This document shows, piece after piece, positions 456 through 34,655 of a DNA stretch of 34,655 nucleotides. Source of the DNA: a virus. The notes under the pieces were generated by a model, which saw only the letters and a list, made by a program, of their open reading frames with translations, was not told the DNA's origin and did not search any database. The stretch's first letter is position 1; each line of letters opens with the position of its first letter. The position numbers were made by a program, and so were the translations under genes. The DNA is taken from the IMG/VR virus record IMGVR_UViG_3300033985_000036, positions 1 through 34,655 of that record. One strand, written 5' to 3'.

Positions 456-1634
456 TTACTCTTGCCAATTATTTTGAGAATAACGCTCCTTGACGTGCTG
501 GTCTTTGCCCCGTTGAAAGACGCACTCGTTCAGGAGTTTTGTTTTGAAGTTATAGCTGTTGAAGTGACTCATGATGCCGAAATAGGACTGCATTGAGGCA
601 TTCACCTTGTCGAAGGCAATCAATCCCTTTTCATAGGCTTTTTGAAGCGTTTTGACCCTCCTCTTAATCTTCTTCAGGGTCTTTTTCTTCAGCTTCCTAT
701 GGGTAGGCCATATCTTAAAACCCACGAACTCAACGCCTAGAGATATGGGCCTGATAGCGGTTTTATTGTTTAAATCGAGCGCAAGTGCTGATTTCAGGAA
801 TATCCCAATATCCTCCTTAACCTTATGCAAGTATTTCTTGTCATCCGACAGGATTATTATATCATCCATATACCTGATGTAGTAGTGTATCCTCAATTTG
901 TGTTTTACATACTGGTCAAGCTCGTTCAAGTAGACGTTTGCAAAGAGTTGTGAGGTTAGGTTTCCTATCGGCATCCCTGTATCAAACAATCTCTCTTCTT
1001 CCGGGCAGTCATCGGCTTCCATTCCGGCAGGGAGTCCAAAAGCCACATCCTCACTGTTGACTATGGTTTCAAGCAGCCACATCAAGTCATTATCAGCAAT
1101 CTTCTTTCTCAGGATATCAAGTAATATCGCATGGTTGACTCTGTAAAAATACTTCGAGATATCAAGCTTCAGGTAATAGTATTTTTGACTCTTGCGGTCT
1201 ACCTGCCGCAACCAGTATTGAAGCCTGTCTGCCGCTTTATGAGTGCCTTTCCCGACTCTGCAACCATAACTATCAAAAATAAACTGTTTATCATAAAGCG
1301 GGTATAAAATCCTGTATACGGCCCATTGAACAACTCTATCTTTGAAAGGCAGTGCCATAATCAATCTCTTTTTTGGGTCATGTATAAAGAACTGCCTATA
1401 TTTGCCCACTTCATAGGTTTTATATAAAAGCTCATTTTGAATGATAATCAAGTTTTCTTCAAGCTGGCTGTTAAATTTTAATACTTCATCCCTAAAACGT
1501 TTCCCTTTTCTTGCTTCAAGGGCAGCTATGTACAAGTTTTCAAAATCAATGATTTTGGGAAACAGGTTCTTTAGTTTCTGAGACAATTTTTGCATCCCCT
1601 TGTTTTTATTAGTGCTATATGTAGCATCTTTCAT
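456..1634 (-). CDS. DGR reverse transcriptase
   Basis: A 392-residue group-II-intron-like reverse transcriptase of the diversity-generating retroelement type. Visible motifs: LKLDISKYF near residue 155 (first catalytic Asp), MPIGNLTSQLFANVYLNELD near 220-239 (the GxxxSQ form typical of DGR enzymes) and YIRYMDDIIILS near 250-261 with the YMDD catalytic box. It copies TR RNA into cDNA with adenine-specific errors, and the cDNA then replaces the variable repeat. It is the last gene of the rightmost phage block, after target, avd and TR, the usual DGR order. The ATG at 1634 has only a weak ribosome binding site. A TTG at codon 16, nine bases after AAGGGG, is an alternative start. Its 3' codons overlap the R3-like end repeat. 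Confidence 0.96.
   Translation of the reverse strand: MKDATYSTNKNKGMQKLSQKLKNLFPKIIDFENLYIAALEARKGKRFRDEVLKFNSQLEENLIIIQNELLYKTYEVGKYRQFFIHDPKKRLIMALPFKDRVVQWAVYRILYPLYDKQFIFDSYGCRVGKGTHKAADRLQYWLRQVDRKSQKYYYLKLDISKYFYRVNHAILLDILRKKIADNDLMWLLETIVNSEDVAFGLPAGMEADDCPEEERLFDTGMPIGNLTSQLFANVYLNELDQYVKHKLRIHYYIRYMDDIIILSDDKKYLHKVKEDIGIFLKSALALDLNNKTAIRPISLGVEFVGFKIWPTHRKLKKKTLKKIKRRVKTLQKAYEKGLIAFDKVNASMQSYFGIMSHFNSYNFKTKLLNECVFQRGKDQHVKERYSQNNWQE
461..488 (-). repeat. inverted end-like repeat (R3 candidate) inside the RT gene end
   Basis: On the minus strand this reads CTCAAAATAATTGGCAAG, matching the R1/R2/L1 consensus CTCAAAATnnTTGrCAAAA in inverted orientation to R1. On the plus strand it is followed by ATAACGCTC, and AATAACGCT also follows R2. 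It lies within the last codons of the reverse transcriptase gene. Confidence 0.55.
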
Positions 1635-1682
1635 TACTTACTCGATGCTTCTATAGCAATTCAATATTTTGCTTTATCAGCA

Positions 1683-1735
1683 GGGGAATGAGCCCCTTTG
1701 TTCTCTCTGTGCTATCCATAACCCCGTGAGGTTAT
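1683..1735 (-). ncRNA. structured spacer between TR and RT (DGR RNA)
   Basis: Between the template repeat and the RT gene the minus strand can form two hairpins. One has stem ATAACC/GGTTAT (1718-1735) and the other has stem GGGG/CCCC (1683-1696). In the Bordetella phage DGR the template RNA extends past TR into a structured spacer needed for priming and RT/Avd binding. These hairpins lie at the equivalent place. The exact ends of the RNA cannot be seen. Confidence 0.5.
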
Positions 1736-1756
1736 AGCCATTGACTATGAGAGCAG

Positions 1757-1868
1757 AGCGGAGCGGAAACCGATATTCGTACTGACGTTCGCACGGGAGT
1801 TGTTCAGGTTGACGTTGAACACGCCCGCATTGGAAGTGTTACCCCAATTGCCGCCACGAATCGGGAGC
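1757..1868 (-). repeat. DGR template repeat (TR)
   Basis: A non-coding 112-bp sequence that aligns without gaps to 2325-2436 (offset 568). There are ten mismatches, at 1788, 1801, 1803, 1815, 1816, 1830, 1831, 1839, 1840 and 1861. Each is T on the plus strand of TR, that is A on the coding strand. Read in the frame of the target gene, TR is rich in AAC/AAT codons (N), the usual DGR design that lets adenine mutagenesis reach many amino acids while avoiding stops. Homology ends at 1868, where non-adenine differences begin. Confidence 0.96.
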
Positions 1869-1897
1869 TCAATAGGCTCATCCCCCATAGTTTTTGT

Positions 1898-2239
1898 TTA
1901 TTTATTTGTGGCCTTCATCCAACCTCCCAACATACGCCCGATTTCGCTCAGCATCTTGCTCCAATTCTCATATTGCTTCAGTCCCAAATATTTGAATTTC
2001 GGGTCTGCTGCAACCCTTATAAAGGTTTTTAAGGTTTCCAACTCGACATCCATCTCCTGAAGAGTTGTCTTTTTATAATACTTCTTGTTTGCCGCAATCG
2101 CCAACCTCAGCAAGGTGTACATGGTTTTCTTTATTTCTGTTGCAAGCGCATACCTTTCCGATCTTGGAAACTGAAGCAGGCAGTTGTTCCCATAAACTAT
2201 CATGTCATAGATTTTTTGGTATATCTTTAATTGTTCCAT
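1898..2239 (-). CDS. avd: DGR accessory variability determinant Avd
   Basis: A 113-residue, mostly helical, basic protein matching the Avd four-helix-bundle family (S23-like fold). Features include MEQLKIYQKIYDMIVYGNNC at the N-terminus, the FPRSERYALATEIKKTM segment and a C-terminal helix with YENWSKMLSEIGRMLGGW. Avd forms a pentamer that binds the DGR reverse transcriptase and TR RNA and is required for mutagenic retrohoming. It lies between the target gene and TR, as in the Bordetella phage element. The ATG start is preceded by AGAGGGG eight bases upstream. No truncation is seen. Confidence 0.9.
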   Translation of the reverse strand: MEQLKIYQKIYDMIVYGNNCLLQFPRSERYALATEIKKTMYTLLRLAIAANKKYYKKTTLQEMDVELETLKTFIRVAADPKFKYLGLKQYENWSKMLSEIGRMLGGWMKATNK

Positions 2240-2266
2240 CTAAAATTCCCCTCTTACTTCAGGGCG

Positions 2267-2288
2267 GGGGAGAGCTATCGCTCTCCCC
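2267..2288. other. perfect hairpin downstream of the variable repeat
   Basis: A nine-base-pair perfect inverted repeat (GGGGAGAGC / GCTCTCCCC) with a four-base loop, reading GATA on the minus strand. It lies 36 bp beyond VR and 21 bp after the target stop codon. No T-run follows on the minus strand, so it is not a classical terminator. DGRs often carry a short GC-rich hairpin with a tetraloop just after VR that promotes target recognition. Confidence 0.7.
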
Positions 2289-2309
2289 GTCAGATATTCA
2301 GAAAACAGA

Positions 2310-3413
2310 TTACAGAGCAACAAAAGCGGAGCGGAAACCGATATTCGTACTGACGATCGCACGGGAGTGGCTCAGGTTGACGCCGAACACGCCCGCAGAG
2401 GAAGTGCAACCCCAATTGCCGCCACGAAACGGGAGCCTTTCTCCATAGTTACGAGCATAAAAACCGTCTGCCCCATGCGCCGCATCAATCGGAAACATAC
2501 CTAAAGCTTTGAGGAGATTCGGGATTGTTACTCCTGCCTTTGCGGTCATTGTTTCAAATGTTACGCTTGAATATCCATAATCGAACTGACCGCCCGGTAT
2601 ATACATCGGGTTTTCAACAGCGGTGTTTATTATTGGGTCTCCGCCGACATCATGAGAGGTGGTGGTGGAATCGCCAGCCGTGGTATTGTCTACTTTTAGA
2701 GTGTTGGCCGTGCCGGGGGCAACAAGGCTTCCATCCTGTAACATAGCTTTCCACAACGGACTTGCCGCCGTTTGGTCAACAGCAGCAGCCGCATCATTGT
2801 TAGGGATAATTTGTATCTCCCCGTTGTTTAGCCTCAAGCCGCCAACCCATTCCCACACGTTGCCATTGAGGTCAAATATGCCCTCGTTGGTATTGTCGTG
2901 AGCCCAACTTGCCGGGCCGCTTCCGGTTGCAACCCTGCCAGTCTTCCCGGCTCCACTGTCAAAGTATGTCTCCACGCCTTTCTCATGGGGAGCGGAATGG
3001 TCAGCTCCATAGTTATTGTTCCCCCTGGGCATGAAGCCGTTTTTCTTGCACCAAAGCGCAATTCCGGCCCACTCAGCATTTGTCATCAAATGCCATCCTA
3101 AACCTTTACTTTCACAGTAGGTTTTTACGGTGTCGAAGTTTGCGCTTACTTTTGGGTCTTTAAAGGGCAGGCTGTAGGCCCGGTCATACATAACAATATT
3201 TTGATACTTTGAGACCATCACTTCCGCTTTCTGGACTCCACTCACCAAAAACATAGGATGAGCCGCATTATCTCCACCGGCCATAACATCAATGCTCTTG
3301 AAAAACGGAATCCTCACCATGATTGAAGGGAGCCCCATATCATCAAACAAGACCGTATTTTTCCCGCCCGACAACGCTTCAACCGCTAATTTCATGTCAT
3401 CAAAATTATTCAT
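2310..3413 (-). CDS. DGR target protein, C-type-lectin/FGE-like fold, receptor-binding candidate
   Basis: A 367-residue protein whose C-terminal two thirds resemble formylglycine-generating-enzyme/C-type-lectin domains used as DGR targets. Visible are WHLMTNAEWAGIALWCKKNG, FDLNGNVWEWVGGL and the final RGGNWGC...GFRSAF block that contains VR. The variable residues sit on the expected ligand-binding surface of such folds. Residues 1-100 are probably the phage-attachment part. It lies at the end of the tail operon, overlaps the upstream gene by 8 bp and has AAAGGAGG eight bases before its ATG. It is therefore probably a tail-tip or fibre adhesin comparable to Mtd. Phage assembly is inferred from context; the fold and DGR role are well supported. 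Confidence 0.92.
   Translation of the reverse strand: MNNFDDMKLAVEALSGGKNTVLFDDMGLPSIMVRIPFFKSIDVMAGGDNAAHPMFLVSGVQKAEVMVSKYQNIVMYDRAYSLPFKDPKVSANFDTVKTYCESKGLGWHLMTNAEWAGIALWCKKNGFMPRGNNNYGADHSAPHEKGVETYFDSGAGKTGRVATGSGPASWAHDNTNEGIFDLNGNVWEWVGGLRLNNGEIQIIPNNDAAAAVDQTAASPLWKAMLQDGSLVAPGTANTLKVDNTTAGDSTTTSHDVGGDPIINTAVENPMYIPGGQFDYGYSSVTFETMTAKAGVTIPNLLKALGMFPIDAAHGADGFYARNYGERLPFRGGNWGCTSSAGVFGVNLSHSRAIVSTNIGFRSAFVAL
2325..2436 (-). repeat. DGR variable repeat (VR)
   Basis: Variable copy of the 112-bp repeat, forming codons about 326-363 of the target gene. Relative to TR it has ten substitutions, all at template adenines. They give seven residue changes: I329F, N336C, N339S, N344G, N348S, N349H and N353I (TR residue, position, VR residue). 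The part nearest the 3' end of the gene (2325-2355) is identical to TR and probably contains the initiation-of-mutagenic-homing region. Confidence 0.96.
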
Positions 3414-15545: not shown

Positions 15546-16433
15546 TTACGCAACTTCGCCAGTGCTGCCAAAGGCCATCTGCCAAAAGCCATAACCGGCG
15601 TTAGCCCTGCAATGTACTCCATAGAGGTACTGTTTCCTCATGAAGACATTCTCGTCCTTATCGTCAATCAGGGCATCGAACTTCGGAGCCTTTCTCTCCT
15701 GGAAGATGAGCGGCTTCAGGGGCTTTGTGGTACAAAGCAGGAACCATGCGTCATCACTTCCGGCCAGGTCAGGAACAACAAGCAGCTCAGCCGTGCCTTT
15801 GTAAATGTTTGTCGAGCCGTCAATCTGCTCAGCCAGGAGGATTTTTCTCCCCATTTCTTCATTGCCAGGGGCAACGACAAGCAGGTTGGGAATGAGTTTC
15901 AGGCTCCGTCCGTGTTCGTCGGTCAATGACATCATGCCGCTTCTTGCTGCCGCATAGGAGGTAGGAGAGAGCTTATTTGTGCCCTTGTTGCTGACCGTCT
16001 TTTTACCCACCTTGTGAGTGGTAGAGAAGAACGGCTGCCCGTCATAGCACTTGTTTTCAAAGCCGCCTTTCAGGAGCTCAAAAACAAGGTCATCCGGGAA
16101 TGTTGCCGTGCTTTGAGCTATATCTTGGATAACCGGATTGTAGACACCAATCTTGTCATCCTCGATGTCGTTCCGGTCAACGCCGATGGTGAGCTCAAAG
16201 TCCTTGTTCTTGATGGTGTAATCGGAGGCAGCAAGGTTTTGAATCTCCCTGTCTCCAATCCATTCCCTCATCCGGGGAATCTTTCCGAGCCATTTGTAAT
16301 TCTCTTCCCCGGTCTCGCTGGGGACTTTGGTTGCAATCTTGTCCCAAAGGACTTTTGTTTCGCTAAAGACCTTGTTGAAGATGGTCTTAAAGCCTGTCGT
16401 AATTCCGTGTAACGCCTGTTGGTTAACTATCAT
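15546..16433 (-). CDS. major head subunit (Mu gpT)
   Basis: A 295-residue major capsid protein of the Mu gpT family, including the N-terminal ALHGITTGFKTIFNKVF and the WLGKIPRMREWIGDREIQNL motif. Further segments are FVELTIGVDRNDIEDDKIG-like sequence near 80-95, GQPFFSTTH, and LLVVPDLAGSDDAWFLL. It forms the icosahedral shell. GGAGG precedes the ATG by about eleven bases. Length matches the family. Confidence 0.95.
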   Translation of the reverse strand: MIVNQQALHGITTGFKTIFNKVFSETKVLWDKIATKVPSETGEENYKWLGKIPRMREWIGDREIQNLAASDYTIKNKDFELTIGVDRNDIEDDKIGVYNPVIQDIAQSTATFPDDLVFELLKGGFENKCYDGQPFFSTTHKVGKKTVSNKGTNKLSPTSYAAARSGMMSLTDEHGRSLKLIPNLLVVAPGNEEMGRKILLAEQIDGSTNIYKGTAELLVVPDLAGSDDAWFLLCTTKPLKPLIFQERKAPKFDALIDDKDENVFMRKQYLYGVHCRANAGYGFWQMAFGSTGEVA

Positions 16434-18026: not shown

Positions 18027-18767
18027 TTATTTGCTCGTCTTTTTCTTTGATGCCTCTCTCCTTTCGAACGCTTTTTTGAGCGGCTCAGGATAGTCCTTCA
18101 GGTCAGGCTTAAATGGCACCTTTGCCGGATTGTTTGCGAAGTTCGGGTCAGGAAGTATGTTCACAAACTTCCCGTCAACCTCAGCGGCCTGGGGAGCCCC
18201 CGTCTCCACCTTGAGACCTCTTTCTCTGACCTGTCTTTCCGATAATGTCTTCACCCCGCACCGGCACCGGAAGCCGTTCGGGGGATACCAGATATCCCAA
18301 ACAGGGTCATCCGCTCTGAAAACCCTGCCGTCCATCGCCAAATGAGAGGGTCTTGTGTGCTTGTCGCCTACTGCGTCATACTCCCAATAGGGTCGGAGCC
18401 TCAAAACCTCCGGTGAGGTCATCTGCCTGTAGTGGCCGACCTGGTAGGATGTTTGAATGTTCGTTCTAAAGATGTTGTCGGCCTGAAAATTTGTGATGCC
18501 CTTATAACCCTTGTTTTCCAGGAACTCATTCATGCTGTCCTTGAAGTCCCTCAAGGTTGTGCCTTCTTCGATTGCCTTCAAGAGCTCGTCATGGAACTTG
18601 TTGAGTACCTGGATTTTGGAGTATCCTGAAACCGTGAAAGCCTTGTTCCTGTACTCGTCAGCCAGCTTGTAAAACTCCGAGGGCTTCAGCGGGAGCTTAT
18701 CCCCGAAGTAGCTCACCGCTTCTTCAAAGACAATTTCTTTGGTCAACAGCTCAAACAAGTCTTTCAT
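18027..18767 (-). CDS. head morphogenesis protein (Mu gpF)
   Basis: A 246-residue minor head protein. The diagnostic part is near residues 130-175: YDAVGDKHTRPSHLAMDGRV, then WDIWYPPNGFRCRCGVKTLS, containing the conserved H, D and C.C residues of the gpF/SPP1 gp7 family. The N-terminal 120 residues are helical. It is needed early in head assembly. The start overlaps the portal gene end by 17 bp. Confidence 0.94.
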   Translation of the reverse strand: MKDLFELLTKEIVFEEAVSYFGDKLPLKPSEFYKLADEYRNKAFTVSGYSKIQVLNKFHDELLKAIEEGTTLRDFKDSMNEFLENKGYKGITNFQADNIFRTNIQTSYQVGHYRQMTSPEVLRLRPYWEYDAVGDKHTRPSHLAMDGRVFRADDPVWDIWYPPNGFRCRCGVKTLSERQVRERGLKVETGAPQAAEVDGKFVNILPDPNFANNPAKVPFKPDLKDYPEPLKKAFERREASKKKTSK

Positions 18768-20322
18768 TTTCCTTCATCCTTCCGAGCATATCGGCGTAGA
18801 ACATTGCCTTTTGAAGGAGCTCATCAAGGTCTTTGATGTCCATCTTTTTATAGAGGGCCTCTACAAACTTTTCATCTTCAAGCTGCTTTTTGAGTTCTTC
18901 CAGACTTTCCGAATCGTTGAGCAACTCCATCACCGGCTCAAAAATTTTGGCAAAAACACTTGAGCTTTGGGCAGCGGCCACGTCAGCCAGCTTGTCAATT
19001 TGCGCCTGGTACTCTTTGTCAATCTCCCTGTCACTCTTGTTCTTCATAAGCTTCAGGGCCTCTTTGAGGGGCACACCGGACGCTCCTCCTGGAGGAGCAG
19101 CCACTTCTTCTCCTTCCTCCGGTTTTGGAATACTGAATTTCTTGTACAGGTGAGCCGTCGGCACCTTTAATCCTATCCTGCAAATAAGCTTTTCGTAGAT
19201 GTCAACCGTTTCCTTTTGGTCGTCTGCTTCCTCAAAGTCAAACCTGAGATACGGGATTCTCTTGTCTTCCCCGTAGTTGAAGAGCACGAGAGGACGGATT
19301 AAATCTCTTCTGAGAGTAGCGGCCAGGGCCTTGCAGTCCGCAACCGTCAAATCATGCCTTACCTCGTTATGGGTTTTTGACTGGGCATAGGAGCCGCTTC
19401 CCGAATCAGAGGTAAGGGTCTGACCGAGCACAGCCTTTGATATCTGCTCGTCACAGAACCGGGCCAGAGACTCATAGACATTGATTGAGGTTGTCTTTGC
19501 GCTTTCCTTGAACTCAATCTCCGTCCCGTCCGGGATGATACCGGCTGCATCCGTCCCAATCTGTACCAGTGCCCTCATGAGGGCCAGCTTGTCTTCTTCG
19601 CTTGCTGAGGGATTGTATTTCCCTAGCCTCAAAGGCATCCCGAAGACTTCACAAAAGCTTACCCAGTCCTTGAGGTCATAGTTCTTGAAGAGGTACATCC
19701 AGGCTACCACACGGAGCACGCCAGCCCTTGCAGGATGACCGGACTTCGCTTTGTACCGGTGGATAATAAACTTGTTTTCAGGAATCTCAATCCCGGAAGG
19801 GAAGTCCTTCGTTGTGATTTTCAGGATGTCGTTTTCGTCCCAAAACAGCCTCTTTTGATGCCTCCACTTGATATCCTGGATAGTGACTTTGCCCTCGTCA
19901 TAGGCCCAAATGATTTCACTTATGGCAATCCCTTTGCCTATGGCATCCAACAAGTCCATGAGGACATCCTCAAGGTTTTCCAGGCTCTCAATCTCCTGCC
20001 TGACAAACTCAGCAATCTCCTTGTCGGCCTCATCGTCAGAGAAGGGGATAATCTCATAGTCCAGTCCGGTGACTGCGTTCTTCCTGGTCTGAAGCTGGGA
20101 GAACAAATGAGGGTCTTTCTCTTCCATCTCCTCAAAGAGCTCCATCTGCCTCAGAACGTCCCCGGCATCGGCTTCCCTGAATATCTGCGCCAACCTGACT
20201 GGTGTCAGCCCGTTAGAGGGGTAGGTTGAATATTTGTCCTGAACCTGAGCCACCGCAATTTCAAAGAGCTCAGGTTTCTTGGTTGCTGCCTTGTCTTTTG
20301 CTTTATCGCGTTTCTTCGCCAA
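18751..20322 (-). CDS. portal protein (Mu gp29, DUF935)
   Basis: A 523-residue DUF935 portal protein. Conserved parts are YPSNGLTPVRLAQIFREADAG near the start, DLLDAIGKGIAISEIIWAYDEG near 110, and VVAWMYLFKNYDLKDWVSFCEVFGMPLRLGKY near 205. Further segments are SKAVLGQTLTSDSGSGSYAQ near 290 and a helical C-terminal tail. The portal ring occupies one capsid vertex and takes DNA from the terminase. TTG start after GGGGGTGAG. It contains a near-exact copy of the right-end repeat in its coding sequence. Confidence 0.95.
   Translation of the reverse strand: MAKKRDKAKDKAATKKPELFEIAVAQVQDKYSTYPSNGLTPVRLAQIFREADAGDVLRQMELFEEMEEKDPHLFSQLQTRKNAVTGLDYEIIPFSDDEADKEIAEFVRQEIESLENLEDVLMDLLDAIGKGIAISEIIWAYDEGKVTIQDIKWRHQKRLFWDENDILKITTKDFPSGIEIPENKFIIHRYKAKSGHPARAGVLRVVAWMYLFKNYDLKDWVSFCEVFGMPLRLGKYNPSASEEDKLALMRALVQIGTDAAGIIPDGTEIEFKESAKTTSINVYESLARFCDEQISKAVLGQTLTSDSGSGSYAQSKTHNEVRHDLTVADCKALAATLRRDLIRPLVLFNYGEDKRIPYLRFDFEEADDQKETVDIYEKLICRIGLKVPTAHLYKKFSIPKPEEGEEVAAPPGGASGVPLKEALKLMKNKSDREIDKEYQAQIDKLADVAAAQSSSVFAKIFEPVMELLNDSESLEELKKQLEDEKFVEALYKKMDIKDLDELLQKAMFYADMLGRMKENERLV
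18936..18956 (+). repeat. internal copy of the R1 end repeat, near the prophage midpoint
   Basis: Twenty of 21 bases equal the right-end repeat at 373-393, in the same orientation; the single mismatch is A for T at 18944. It lies in the 3' part of the portal gene, coding for SSVFAKIFEP, about 1.5 kb from the geometric middle of the prophage. Confidence 0.65.
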
Positions 20323-28688: not shown

Positions 28689-29660
28689 TTAAAGCATCAT
28701 CATTTTGCTTGCCTGGTTGATAATTTTGAGAGTAATGACTTCCTGACCGGTGTCATTCATAATCCTGATAACGTTGTCCAGTGTCCTCCCCAGCAGCCGG
28801 AAACATCCCGTCTGATGGTTGCAGGCCCTGGAGACCAGCTCATTCATTGCGTCCGGCTCGACCTTGTACCCCTCAAGGTATTTCTCCACTTCCTGCCGGG
28901 TCAGCCCCTTCAGGGAAACATAGAAGTCAATCCTGTTGGCAAACCGTGTGAGATAACTCTTTATCTGAGCTTCAAGCTTCGGCTCACCGGCAATGACAAT
29001 CCCGACATCAGCCTGGTCAAAAATACCCCGGAGGATTTCCATTTTCTTCTGAGTGTACTTGCTGATGAGCTTGTCAGCCTCGTCGATGATGAGCAAATAC
29101 CCGTGATTCACGTTGAAAAACTCCCTGATTCCGTTGACCCTTTTCCAAATCGTCCCGTACGTCTGAGGAATGCCGAGGGCCTTCTCAATGGCCTCGACCA
29201 AATCCCGGCTTGACATGATATCGTCACACTCGACATAGGCCACACGGGGCAGTTTGGCGTAGTGCTTCAGAGCGTGAGTCTTGCCGAACCCCGACTTGCC
29301 GACCACAATCCCAAGGCCCATGTCTTCCTGGCAGGAGCTGCAAAGTCCAATCACACTCTCCGCATCCCGGCCCTCAAAGAACCCTCTCTTTTTTGGCAGC
29401 CTCAAAACCGGTGTTTCGGTTGCCGCCGGAGTGTCTTCTTTTTGTCCGGCCTTGCTCTTGAGGTAGTCCTCAAGCCTTGCCTCAAGCTCCGTCGTGTCGC
29501 TGTCATACTTGCCTGACAAATACCTCGATATGGTTGTCCTCGAATAGTTCAGCTCGTTTGCTAGTTCCGCTTTGGTCTTCTTGTTTACCGCCAGGTACTC
29601 ATTGACCCTTTGGGCCAGTGACCTCATTTCACCCGTGTAAATCGTCGCTACAGCTTCCAT
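28689..29660 (-). CDS. MuB-like transposition target-selection ATPase
   Basis: A 323-residue AAA+ protein. Residues 1-75 hold a helix-turn-helix (KKTKAELANELNYSRTTISRYLSG). Walker A is GIVVGKSGFGKTHALKHY near 118-134, Walker B HGYLLIIDEADKLI near 183, and a C-terminal basic domain follows. MuB binds DNA, delivers target DNA to MuA and provides target immunity. ATG at 29660 eight bases after GAGGG. It follows the transposase gene, as in Mu. Confidence 0.94.
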   Translation of the reverse strand: MEAVATIYTGEMRSLAQRVNEYLAVNKKTKAELANELNYSRTTISRYLSGKYDSDTTELEARLEDYLKSKAGQKEDTPAATETPVLRLPKKRGFFEGRDAESVIGLCSSCQEDMGLGIVVGKSGFGKTHALKHYAKLPRVAYVECDDIMSSRDLVEAIEKALGIPQTYGTIWKRVNGIREFFNVNHGYLLIIDEADKLISKYTQKKMEILRGIFDQADVGIVIAGEPKLEAQIKSYLTRFANRIDFYVSLKGLTRQEVEKYLEGYKVEPDAMNELVSRACNHQTGCFRLLGRTLDNVIRIMNDTGQEVITLKIINQASKMMML

Positions 29661-29685
29661 CACTTTATCCCTCGCTTTCTAATTT

Positions 29686-31749
29686 TTACCCAAGCTGCCT
29701 AAGCTTAGAGAGTGCATCCTGGGCCTTCCTACTGAAGAACTCGTCTTCAGCGTCTTGTTTCTGCCTGTTCTTTTTATCCCTGAGCTCTGAGGCAAACTGC
29801 TTGTCCTGCGGGAGAGCAACCACCTTGTCGCTCTTACCCTTAACCACCAGGTCAAGAGCCCCGACAACATCACCCGGAACGTTGCCCCTTTGCTCATACG
29901 GCGTTCTGAACTCCTCAAGGAGTTCCTTATCGTTTCTAAGCTGCGTATTCTGCATTTTCTTGTGTTCCTCAAGGGCCTTTTGGGAGACCTTTGGAGCTAT
30001 CAGCAAGAGCTCCTGAGATACCGCTTCACAAATCTTCTTGCCTTCCCTTGTGTAGACGTAGAGCCTTGTCACGTCTTCAGGGTCATACTTGATATCAACC
30101 TTTTCCCCGTGGTAGTTGCAAAGCTCCTGAGCCCTGTACTCGTAACCGAATTTCCTGATTCCGATGTTGTAAACCGTGACCCTCTCAGACTTCATCATCA
30201 GGATTGAAGCGTATGACTTCGGGGGAGCAGGCTTATAGTACTTGTCCTCAGCCTTCATGAAGAGCTCTATCGGAACCGTGTACTTCTCACCCTGACGCTT
30301 GAGGCCGGAGTGTTCGCGTTTGTGGTAAACTTCGTTTAACCACTTTGTCCAAAGCTCGTAAAACTCTTCCATCGTGAGGAGCTCCCCACGCTCCAACATC
30401 TTAGGGATGTCCTTCTTGATTTTGGCTGCCGTCTTGGAGCCGGTCAGAGTGCCGGTGTAGGAGAACATCCATTTTGTGAAGCTTGAGCATATCGTCCCGA
30501 AAAACCGCTCAATCTGCGCCTTTGACCAAGGCTGAAACGGCAGGCTGTTTATTTCGTCCTGAATTCCTATGCTCCGGTAAAATCCTTTAGTCTCTTCGTC
30601 GAATTGGAGCTCCTTCTTCTGCTTCCGCTCACTCCGCTTGATGCCAGTCAAATCCTTGGCGTTGTAGTCCTTGCCGTTGTCGATTAAGAGCCACTGAGGT
30701 ACTCCTCCCGGCGTGCCGTAAATCACTTTGAGCAAGGACAATTTCAAAATCTGAGAGTTGGCGTGTCGGCAGATAATGTCACCGAGGAATGTCCGGCTCC
30801 TGGTGTCCACCCAGCCCACAAGCCGGGGTTTTATTGCCGTGACCTTGCCGTTTGGATGGGTATATGCTACCCAGCAGTCAAATGTATGTTCGTCACCTTG
30901 CAGGAGGCCCAGGACCGGCAGGGACTTGGTGTCCCGCGAACCCTTCACCATCACCTTGTTTTTGTATTCCCTCATGCCCTTGGCCGCCAGGAAATGAGCG
31001 TTCTTGGCCCGTCTTTCCTCCATCAGATAGTTGATATACCTCGTAACCGTCTGATATGACGGGTATTCCCATCCTTGGAGTTCGGCCACCTGCTCAAGCT
31101 TCATGTACAGCATTTCAACCGTCCCGTCGTTGGCCGCAAAGTCCTTGTCAAACCACACGTTTTCAATATATGCCCTGACTTTATCATCCAGGGACGGGAA
31201 CGTGAATTTCTCCTTCGGCTTCCTGCACAGGGAGAGCACCTTCAGAAAATCGTAGTTATGGCCGTTTTCCTTATGGAGCCTCATGGCCCAGGCTGACGCT
31301 TCAAGGTAGTCCTTGGCGTACCGGTATAGAGTCCGCTGGCTGATGCCCAGCTCCTCCGCAAACTCCTCAGCGAAAGCCGTCCGCTCACCGTCGTTGTAGT
31401 TTAAAAACTCCTGTATCCGCTTACCTAGTTCGACTGCCTGATAATACTGCTTTGAGAAGTTCTCAAGATACCAGTTTAAGTCAACGCCTACATACCAGGG
31501 AGTTTCTTGGCCTGTCCTCTGTTCAACCACAACATCACTCCCGCTAATACTCACTTTTTCCTTGTAGCCCCGTCTTGCTTTCTTGGAGAGGGAGGAGAGG
31601 GCAACCAAAACCCTGTCCTTGCCTCCGTCCCTCTCTTCAGTCCGGGTCTTAAAGCTTCCCGGATTCCTTTGAATCCTTCGATAAAGCGTGTAATAATTTA
31701 ACCCTTCTAGTTCAGCCGCTTCTTCGAGCGTGACAAATGTTTCAGCCAA
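29686..31749 (-). CDS. MuA-like DDE transposase
   Basis: A 687-residue transposase. An N-terminal HTH (TLEEAAELEGLNYYTLYRRI) is followed by end-binding domains and the RNase-H-like core. The core has D286 (LLQGDEHTF), D357 (WLLIDNGKDY) and E414 (WSKAQIERFFGT). A beta-barrel Mu-transpos_C part (KFGYEYRAQELCNYHGEKVDIKYD) and a basic C-terminal helix that should contact MuB complete it. It performs integration and replicative transposition. The TTG at 31749 follows AAAGGGGGG; the longer frame (TTG at 31779) lacks a ribosome binding site. Confidence 0.95.
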   Translation of the reverse strand: MAETFVTLEEAAELEGLNYYTLYRRIQRNPGSFKTRTEERDGGKDRVLVALSSLSKKARRGYKEKVSISGSDVVVEQRTGQETPWYVGVDLNWYLENFSKQYYQAVELGKRIQEFLNYNDGERTAFAEEFAEELGISQRTLYRYAKDYLEASAWAMRLHKENGHNYDFLKVLSLCRKPKEKFTFPSLDDKVRAYIENVWFDKDFAANDGTVEMLYMKLEQVAELQGWEYPSYQTVTRYINYLMEERRAKNAHFLAAKGMREYKNKVMVKGSRDTKSLPVLGLLQGDEHTFDCWVAYTHPNGKVTAIKPRLVGWVDTRSRTFLGDIICRHANSQILKLSLLKVIYGTPGGVPQWLLIDNGKDYNAKDLTGIKRSERKQKKELQFDEETKGFYRSIGIQDEINSLPFQPWSKAQIERFFGTICSSFTKWMFSYTGTLTGSKTAAKIKKDIPKMLERGELLTMEEFYELWTKWLNEVYHKREHSGLKRQGEKYTVPIELFMKAEDKYYKPAPPKSYASILMMKSERVTVYNIGIRKFGYEYRAQELCNYHGEKVDIKYDPEDVTRLYVYTREGKKICEAVSQELLLIAPKVSQKALEEHKKMQNTQLRNDKELLEEFRTPYEQRGNVPGDVVGALDLVVKGKSDKVVALPQDKQFASELRDKKNRQKQDAEDEFFSRKAQDALSKLRQLG

Positions 31750-31775
31750 ATCCTTCCCCCCTTTACCCTTGGCCT

Positions 31776-31883
31776 TCAATTTGGTAAAATGGAGGGGATG
31801 AGGGGCTTCTTCATCAACGGCTTTTGAAAAGAGTGTCGCTGCTGACCGGTTGGACGCTCTTTTCTTTTGCCATTGTTGAACAT
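31776..31883 (-). CDS. possible 35-aa early peptide
   Basis: A short frame with ATG at 31883, seven bases after GGAGG, and a TGA at 31776: MFNNGKRKERPTGQQRHSFQ and so on, basic and proline-rich. It fills the gap between the coiled-coil gene and the transposase, but another short frame (19 codons) overlaps it. Coding is not certain. Confidence 0.35.
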   Translation of the reverse strand: MFNNGKRKERPTGQQRHSFQKPLMKKPLIPSILPN

Positions 31884-34454: not shown

Positions 34455-34470
34455 TTTTTGTCAACCGTTT
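34455..34470 (-). repeat. second left-end transposase-like site (L2 candidate)
   Basis: On the minus strand AAACGGTTGACAAAAAA shares TTGACAAAA with L1, 90-91 bp further inside. Spacing of L1 and L2 in Mu is also of this order. The match is short, so this is tentative. Confidence 0.35.
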
Positions 34471-34545: not shown

Positions 34546-34572
34546 TTTTGTCAATTATTTTGTTAATCCACA
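34546..34572 (-). repeat. left phage terminus with transposase-like site L1
   Basis: Read inward on the minus strand it starts TGTGGATTAAC and continues AAAATAATTGACAAAAG. It aligns without gaps to the right terminus at 366-392, including the TGT start, CAAAAT, TTG and CAAAA. The bases beyond (34573 onwards) are very AT-rich and read as a different gene. Confidence 0.7.
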
Positions 34573-34655
34573 ATTTTTATATAATCTGTATAAATCTTTA
34601 CATTTGAATCCTTTATTAAATTTTCATATTGTTTTTTTCTTTCAATAGCTTTTTC
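34563..34655 (-). pseudogene. C-terminal fragment of an unknown host (or neighbour) gene
   Basis: Open on the minus strand from the window edge to a TAA that lies 8-10 bp inside the phage terminus. The 30 residues visible (EKAIERKKQYENLIKDSNVK, then IYTDYIKIVD) are charged and probably helical. It is not the N-terminal half of DeoB, and base composition is far more AT-rich than the deoB flank. The last few codons come from the phage end, so the host gene was truncated there. Confidence 0.5.

Follow-up and report, generated by a model that had tools for sequence, protein, structure and literature searches.

Evidence for a complete, recently active DGR in a Mu-like transposable phage with a Firmicute host

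The viral DNA analysed here (IMG/VR record IMGVR_UViG_3300033985_000036, positions 1 to 34,655; this whole stretch of 34,655 nucleotides is referred to as the window) almost certainly carries a complete and recently active diversity-generating retroelement (DGR) of the BPP-1/TaqVP type. The carrier is a Mu-like transposable phage with a Firmicute host, and the DGR occupies its right end. The parts of the DGR lie on the minus strand in the order target gene (3413–2310, with the variable repeat, VR, at its end), GATA-loop hairpin, avd (2239–1898), template repeat (TR, 1868–1757), a 122-nt spacer and reverse transcriptase (RT, 1634–456). Judged from sequence, this amounts to a complete DGR: a C-type-lectin target with its VR, a GRNA hairpin, avd, TR, a structured spacer and an intact RT.

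The TR (1757–1868, minus strand), which is noncoding and contains nine in-frame AAY codons, and the VR (2325–2436, minus strand) are both 112 nt long. When 1868–1757 is set against 2436–2325 the two align without gaps and with exactly 10 mismatches, all ten at an A of the minus-strand (coding) TR, leaving no non-adenine mismatch in the window. Since only 23 of the 112 TR bases are adenines, the chance of ten random differences all falling on A is 2.0e-8. Seven codons are changed: ATT>TTT (F), AAC>TGC (C), AAT>TCT (S), AAC>GGC (G), AAC>AGC (S), AAC>CAC (H) and AAC>ATC (I). An earlier, sequence-only reading of this DNA had given the same placement and length of the repeats, the same gap-free pairing with ten adenine-only differences and the same seven replacements, and the alignment bears it out in each respect. 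Similarity between the repeats breaks off sharply at both edges. Searched from end to end with the TR, the window yielded no copy beyond these two and no second VR, and a scan of IMG/VR with two N-masked TR patterns revealed no additional TR copies.

The target gene (2310–3413, minus strand) closely follows the baseplate and tail genes and encodes 367 aa; the VR, which forms the C-terminus of its product, stops a few codons short of the stop codon. Pfam assigns the product to FGE-sulfatase (E 1e-6), and residues 5–365 match the Thermus aquaticus prophage variable protein TaqVP (PDB 5vf4, E 8.9e-79), a full-length sequence match. The avd gene (accessory variability determinant; 1898–2239, minus strand) encodes 113 aa matching Pfam bAvd (E 3.7e-35) and the PHROG ‘Avd protein of DGR’ (E 9.1e-40). 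The RT gene (456–1634, minus strand) is intact, and its 392-aa product matches RVT_1 (E 1.8e-23) and PHROG 1423 (E 2.8e-144), has chain 8ub7, ‘Reverse transcriptase’, as its best match in the PDB (E 2.3e-52) and aligns with both the IGNLTSQ and YMDD motifs present. The YMDD reverse transcriptase and Avd protein proposed earlier are thus both found intact.

Behind the VR, beginning 37 nt past it, stands a hairpin, GGGGAGAGC-GATA-GCTCTCCCC (2267–2288, minus strand), with a GRNA loop and a 9-bp stem, which is missing behind the TR. GC-rich hairpins with 4-nt GRNA loops, located 4–34 nt behind the VR, are known from phage DGRs (Guo et al., PMC3240598); GATA fits this loop, although the distance of 37 nt lies slightly beyond the published range. 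Among the elements compared, a GRNA hairpin was present behind 10 of 16 VRs and behind no TR. In a search restricted to exact stems, it was not found for BalMu-1, Lagaffe or three other elements (L022, L023 and L024), while the hairpin of L038 carries a different loop. The spacer between TR and RT (1635–1756, minus strand), with its main stem-loop at 1737–1716, is predicted to be a structured part of the template RNA. A consensus structure drawn from seven relatives has 28 pairs, 12 of them changed on both sides, with 98.4% of cells paired as compared with 40–56% when the fold is slid. Covarying stems, together with the loss of pairing on sliding, are as expected of a functional template RNA.

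A near-identical prophage in Desulforamulus putei DSM 12395 (loci L004, L047 and L048) allowed a close comparison. The two phages share about 96–97% DNA identity over long stretches and their RTs are 98% identical, but the D. putei prophage is inserted in other host DNA and its VR differs at 15 sites. Of the 23 adenine sites 14 are affected, against a single one of the 89 remaining sites (Fisher p 4.7e-11); the TR differs at 1 of 112 sites. Divergence is 9.4% in the rest of the target gene, 8.8% in avd and 5.1% in RT, and the spacer has diverged by 2.5% as against 5–9% in the flanking genes. An alignment of related prophages had been put forward in the sequence-only reading as a check; run against D. 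putei, it gave a near-constant TR and a VR that turns over at adenine sites. The single TR change, a C>T at position 73, is not at an adenine, and the same change is found in the matching VR; the VR must therefore have been rewritten from the TR after the window and D. putei lineages split.

More distant relatives give the same picture. At non-adenine sites each VR has 0–1 mismatches to its own TR, distant relatives included, as compared with 1 (between the window and D. putei, which have almost the same TR) or 9–26 to the TRs of other lineages. Pooled over 15 elements, 182 of 188 TR/VR differences are at TR adenines, A being changed to G 73 times, to T 64 times and to C 45 times; the many non-adenine differences in related copies that would have spoken against adenine-specific change were not found. 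An RT scan of IMG/VR yielded two relatives only. These comparisons indicate repeated and recent homing of the DGR within this lineage. The lack of any non-adenine VR/TR difference in the window implies that homing postdates most neutral change; it suggests that the last homing in the window's own copy was recent, and this copy is probably still active today.

Could the repeats have arisen in some other way? As both copies specify one lectin tip, and diversifying selection can act on hypervariable tips, a plain duplication, with copies drifting apart through selection on the protein, might be envisaged. Such selection would not, however, spare every non-adenine site, nor would it be expected to confine 182 of 188 changes to TR adenines, and each VR tracks its own noncoding TR at the remaining sites. 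The comparisons across relatives refute this explanation, and we give it practically no credence. We hold it just as improbable that the RT comes from a retron or group II intron and lies near the repeats by chance. Relatives of the RT are annotated as ‘retron-type’ or ‘group II intron’ RTs and Pfam gives RVT_1 only, but PHROG 1423 and 8ub7, the chain closest to it in the PDB, are better matches than the RTs of group II introns, and the order target–VR–avd–TR–RT, with its spacing, is kept in ten or more relatives. Both identities were rejected on these grounds.

The DGR might instead be real but idle, its VR left over from past homing and now subject only to ordinary mutation. Counter-evidence to activity comes from two relatives whose RT genes (L005:10001–11182 and L011) contain in-frame stop codons, two in the Ch109 prophage and one in the Thermincola MAG prophage, showing that DGRs of this type do die; moreover, several intact phage DGRs exhibited no read variation upon sequencing (PMC11792537). 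In spite of these stops, the changes in the Ch109 and Thermincola MAG VRs are adenine-only or nearly so, and the stop-bearing RTs would represent either recently dead elements or MAG errors. For the window, an idle element is unlikely. Its RT and Avd are intact, no VR/TR difference departs from an adenine, and the adenine sites of the VR have turned over relative to D. putei although the TR differs once and the neighbouring genes by 5–9%. The earlier description of a full and recently active DGR is thus supported by the intact RT and Avd, by the D. putei comparison and by the adenine-only differences, and we retain recent activity as the preferred reading.

The phage genome that carries the DGR spans 34,207 bp (366–34572), from a right end, TGTAGCC..., at 366 to a left end, ...CCACA, at 34572, giving termini of the TG...CA type. 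At the right boundary (365/366) the homology of three relatives ends, each in different host DNA, and four phages, each with a flank of its own, share the identical right end GGCTACA. The left end was placed by comparison with homologous relatives whose 5-bp duplications match; two relatives have 5-bp target duplications at both ends (ATAAC and ATAGG). The corresponding 5-mers in the window, AGATC (361–365) and AAAAT (34573–34577), are mismatched, as might result if this copy were rearranged or if several insertions had been joined in assembly. On the minus strand, the phage encodes a MuA-type transposase (29686–31779; Pfam Mu-transpos_C and DDE_2), a MuB-type transposition ATPase (28689–29663; PHROG ‘DNA transposition protein’, E 2.1e-65; AAA_22/TniB), a Mu-type portal protein (18751–20322; Portal_Mu, E 1.5e-119), a Mu F-like head protein (18027–18767; Phage_Mu_F, E 1e-20) and a Mu gpT-like major head subunit (15546–16433; Mu-like_gpT, E 8.7e-103). 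With these genes, and the duplications in the two relatives, the Mu-like carrier suggested previously is confirmed; its gene content and ends identify it as a transposable Mu-like phage. The host is a Firmicute among the clostridia-related bacteria.

Host DNA flanks the phage on both sides. One flank is 365 bp of a Metalloenzyme-superfamily gene, which we take to be phosphopentomutase-like, and the opposite flank measures 83 bp; the two do not resemble one gene. Among 113 genomes from the order to which D. putei belongs, the 365-bp flank reached 72% DNA identity at best, one short stretch excepted. Near the right phage end lie two TTTTTGGCAAA repeats (374–416); two 22-bp repeats with TTTTTGGCAAAAAT occupy this same interval, and near the left end TTTGTCAA occurs at 34457 and 34547. 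The end-proximal repeats with TTTTTGGCAAAAAT and TTTGTCAA are possible transposase binding sites.

What can be read from the DNA itself is the anatomy of the DGR, its adenine specificity, the hairpin, the conserved stem in the RNA and the turnover of the VR between relatives; for RT priming, the cDNA mechanism and a receptor role we infer from the DGR family. By analogy with that family, the TR would be transcribed together with the structured spacer, and an RT–Avd complex would reverse-copy the TR to cDNA, making errors at template adenines. The GC-rich 3′ end common to both repeats, together with the GRNA hairpin that follows the VR, would direct this cDNA to the 3′ end of the target gene, where it would displace the resident VR. 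The resulting variation in the lectin-fold protein would alter what the phage binds. Judging by gene position and known relatives only, the target most likely binds a receptor or has some other place on the virion surface.

The Ch109 prophage (loci L049 and L050) has a second VR (L049:12032–12143), about 23 kb before the TR, in an ORF of the early/lysis region. All 12 of its differences from the TR are at adenines, and it has a GGCA-loop hairpin with an unrelated stem sequence; one TR thus appears to serve two targets in this prophage. The ORF (L049:10767–12158, from a Bacillota MAG) adjoins an amidase gene, and its upstream part resembles nucleoside 2-deoxyribosyltransferases, below the Pfam cut-off. 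It may be two genes rather than a fusion because an internal ATG is preceded by GGAGG. Two VRs have been reported for phage Lagaffe and others (PMC11792537). A further DGR-like pair (L038:803–919 and 1020–1136) has 15 of 15 differences at adenines, with its TR and VR set just 217 nt apart, a spacing not shared by the other relatives.

A wider reading would couple homing with replicative transposition in this phage lineage, a single induced cell giving rise to many differently diversified copies, and would have one TR serve two distant targets, a virion protein and an early/lysis-region protein, as the Ch109 sequence suggests. We consider this combination quite doubtful. If true, one copy could diversify while many transposed copies sit in a cell, an idea already voiced in the sequence-only reading.

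The same reading had held the presence of a DGR in a transposable phage to be noteworthy in itself. This is not borne out, because Mushu, the hankyphage and BalMu-1 are already such phages. DGRs in Mu-like phages of Firmicutes were reportedly the subject of work by Toussaint in 2013. We conclude that the system is real, well supported and of a known type, a DGR in a Mu-like phage having been described before, and that the picture of where DGRs occur is unchanged by it. Rather, the window adds a well-preserved member to the DGR-bearing transposable phages and provides, with D. putei, a clean natural comparison, in which two near-identical phages combine one TR difference with heavy adenine-only VR turnover. 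As this closest relative resides in a named strain, activity should be measurable in culture.

Read-level measurements of VR variation have been made in two transposable phages with DGRs, Mushu (PMC5883640, PMC11792537) and the hankyphage (PMC6199706, PMC12135933). Faecalibacterium phage Mushu is likewise a Mu-like phage of Firmicutes, with an Avd-type DGR comprising RT and TR/VR, and its transposase is the nearest known to that of the window (53.5% identity over 99%). Bacillus phage BalMu-1, also Mu-like and with a Firmicute host, has the same order of baseplate genes, target, avd, TR and RT, an RT that is 59.5% identical, and 120-nt TR and VR repeats in which adenines account for 10 of the 11 differences; it differs in having no perfect GRNA hairpin within 90 nt of its VR and in having lysis genes to the right of RT. 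The Bacteroides hankyphage is transposable and its DGR acts on a tail fibre through 117-bp repeats with 14 adenine mismatches, but its host belongs to another phylum and its VR lies in a very large ORF (residues 2188–2225); silencing of its repressor induces both replicative transposition and DGR activity (PMC12135933). The Thermus aquaticus prophage DGR (TaqVP, 5vf4; PMC6328139), although from another host, offers a full-length homologue of the target, whose lectin fold bears the VR at its C-terminus, and has the same gene order as the window.
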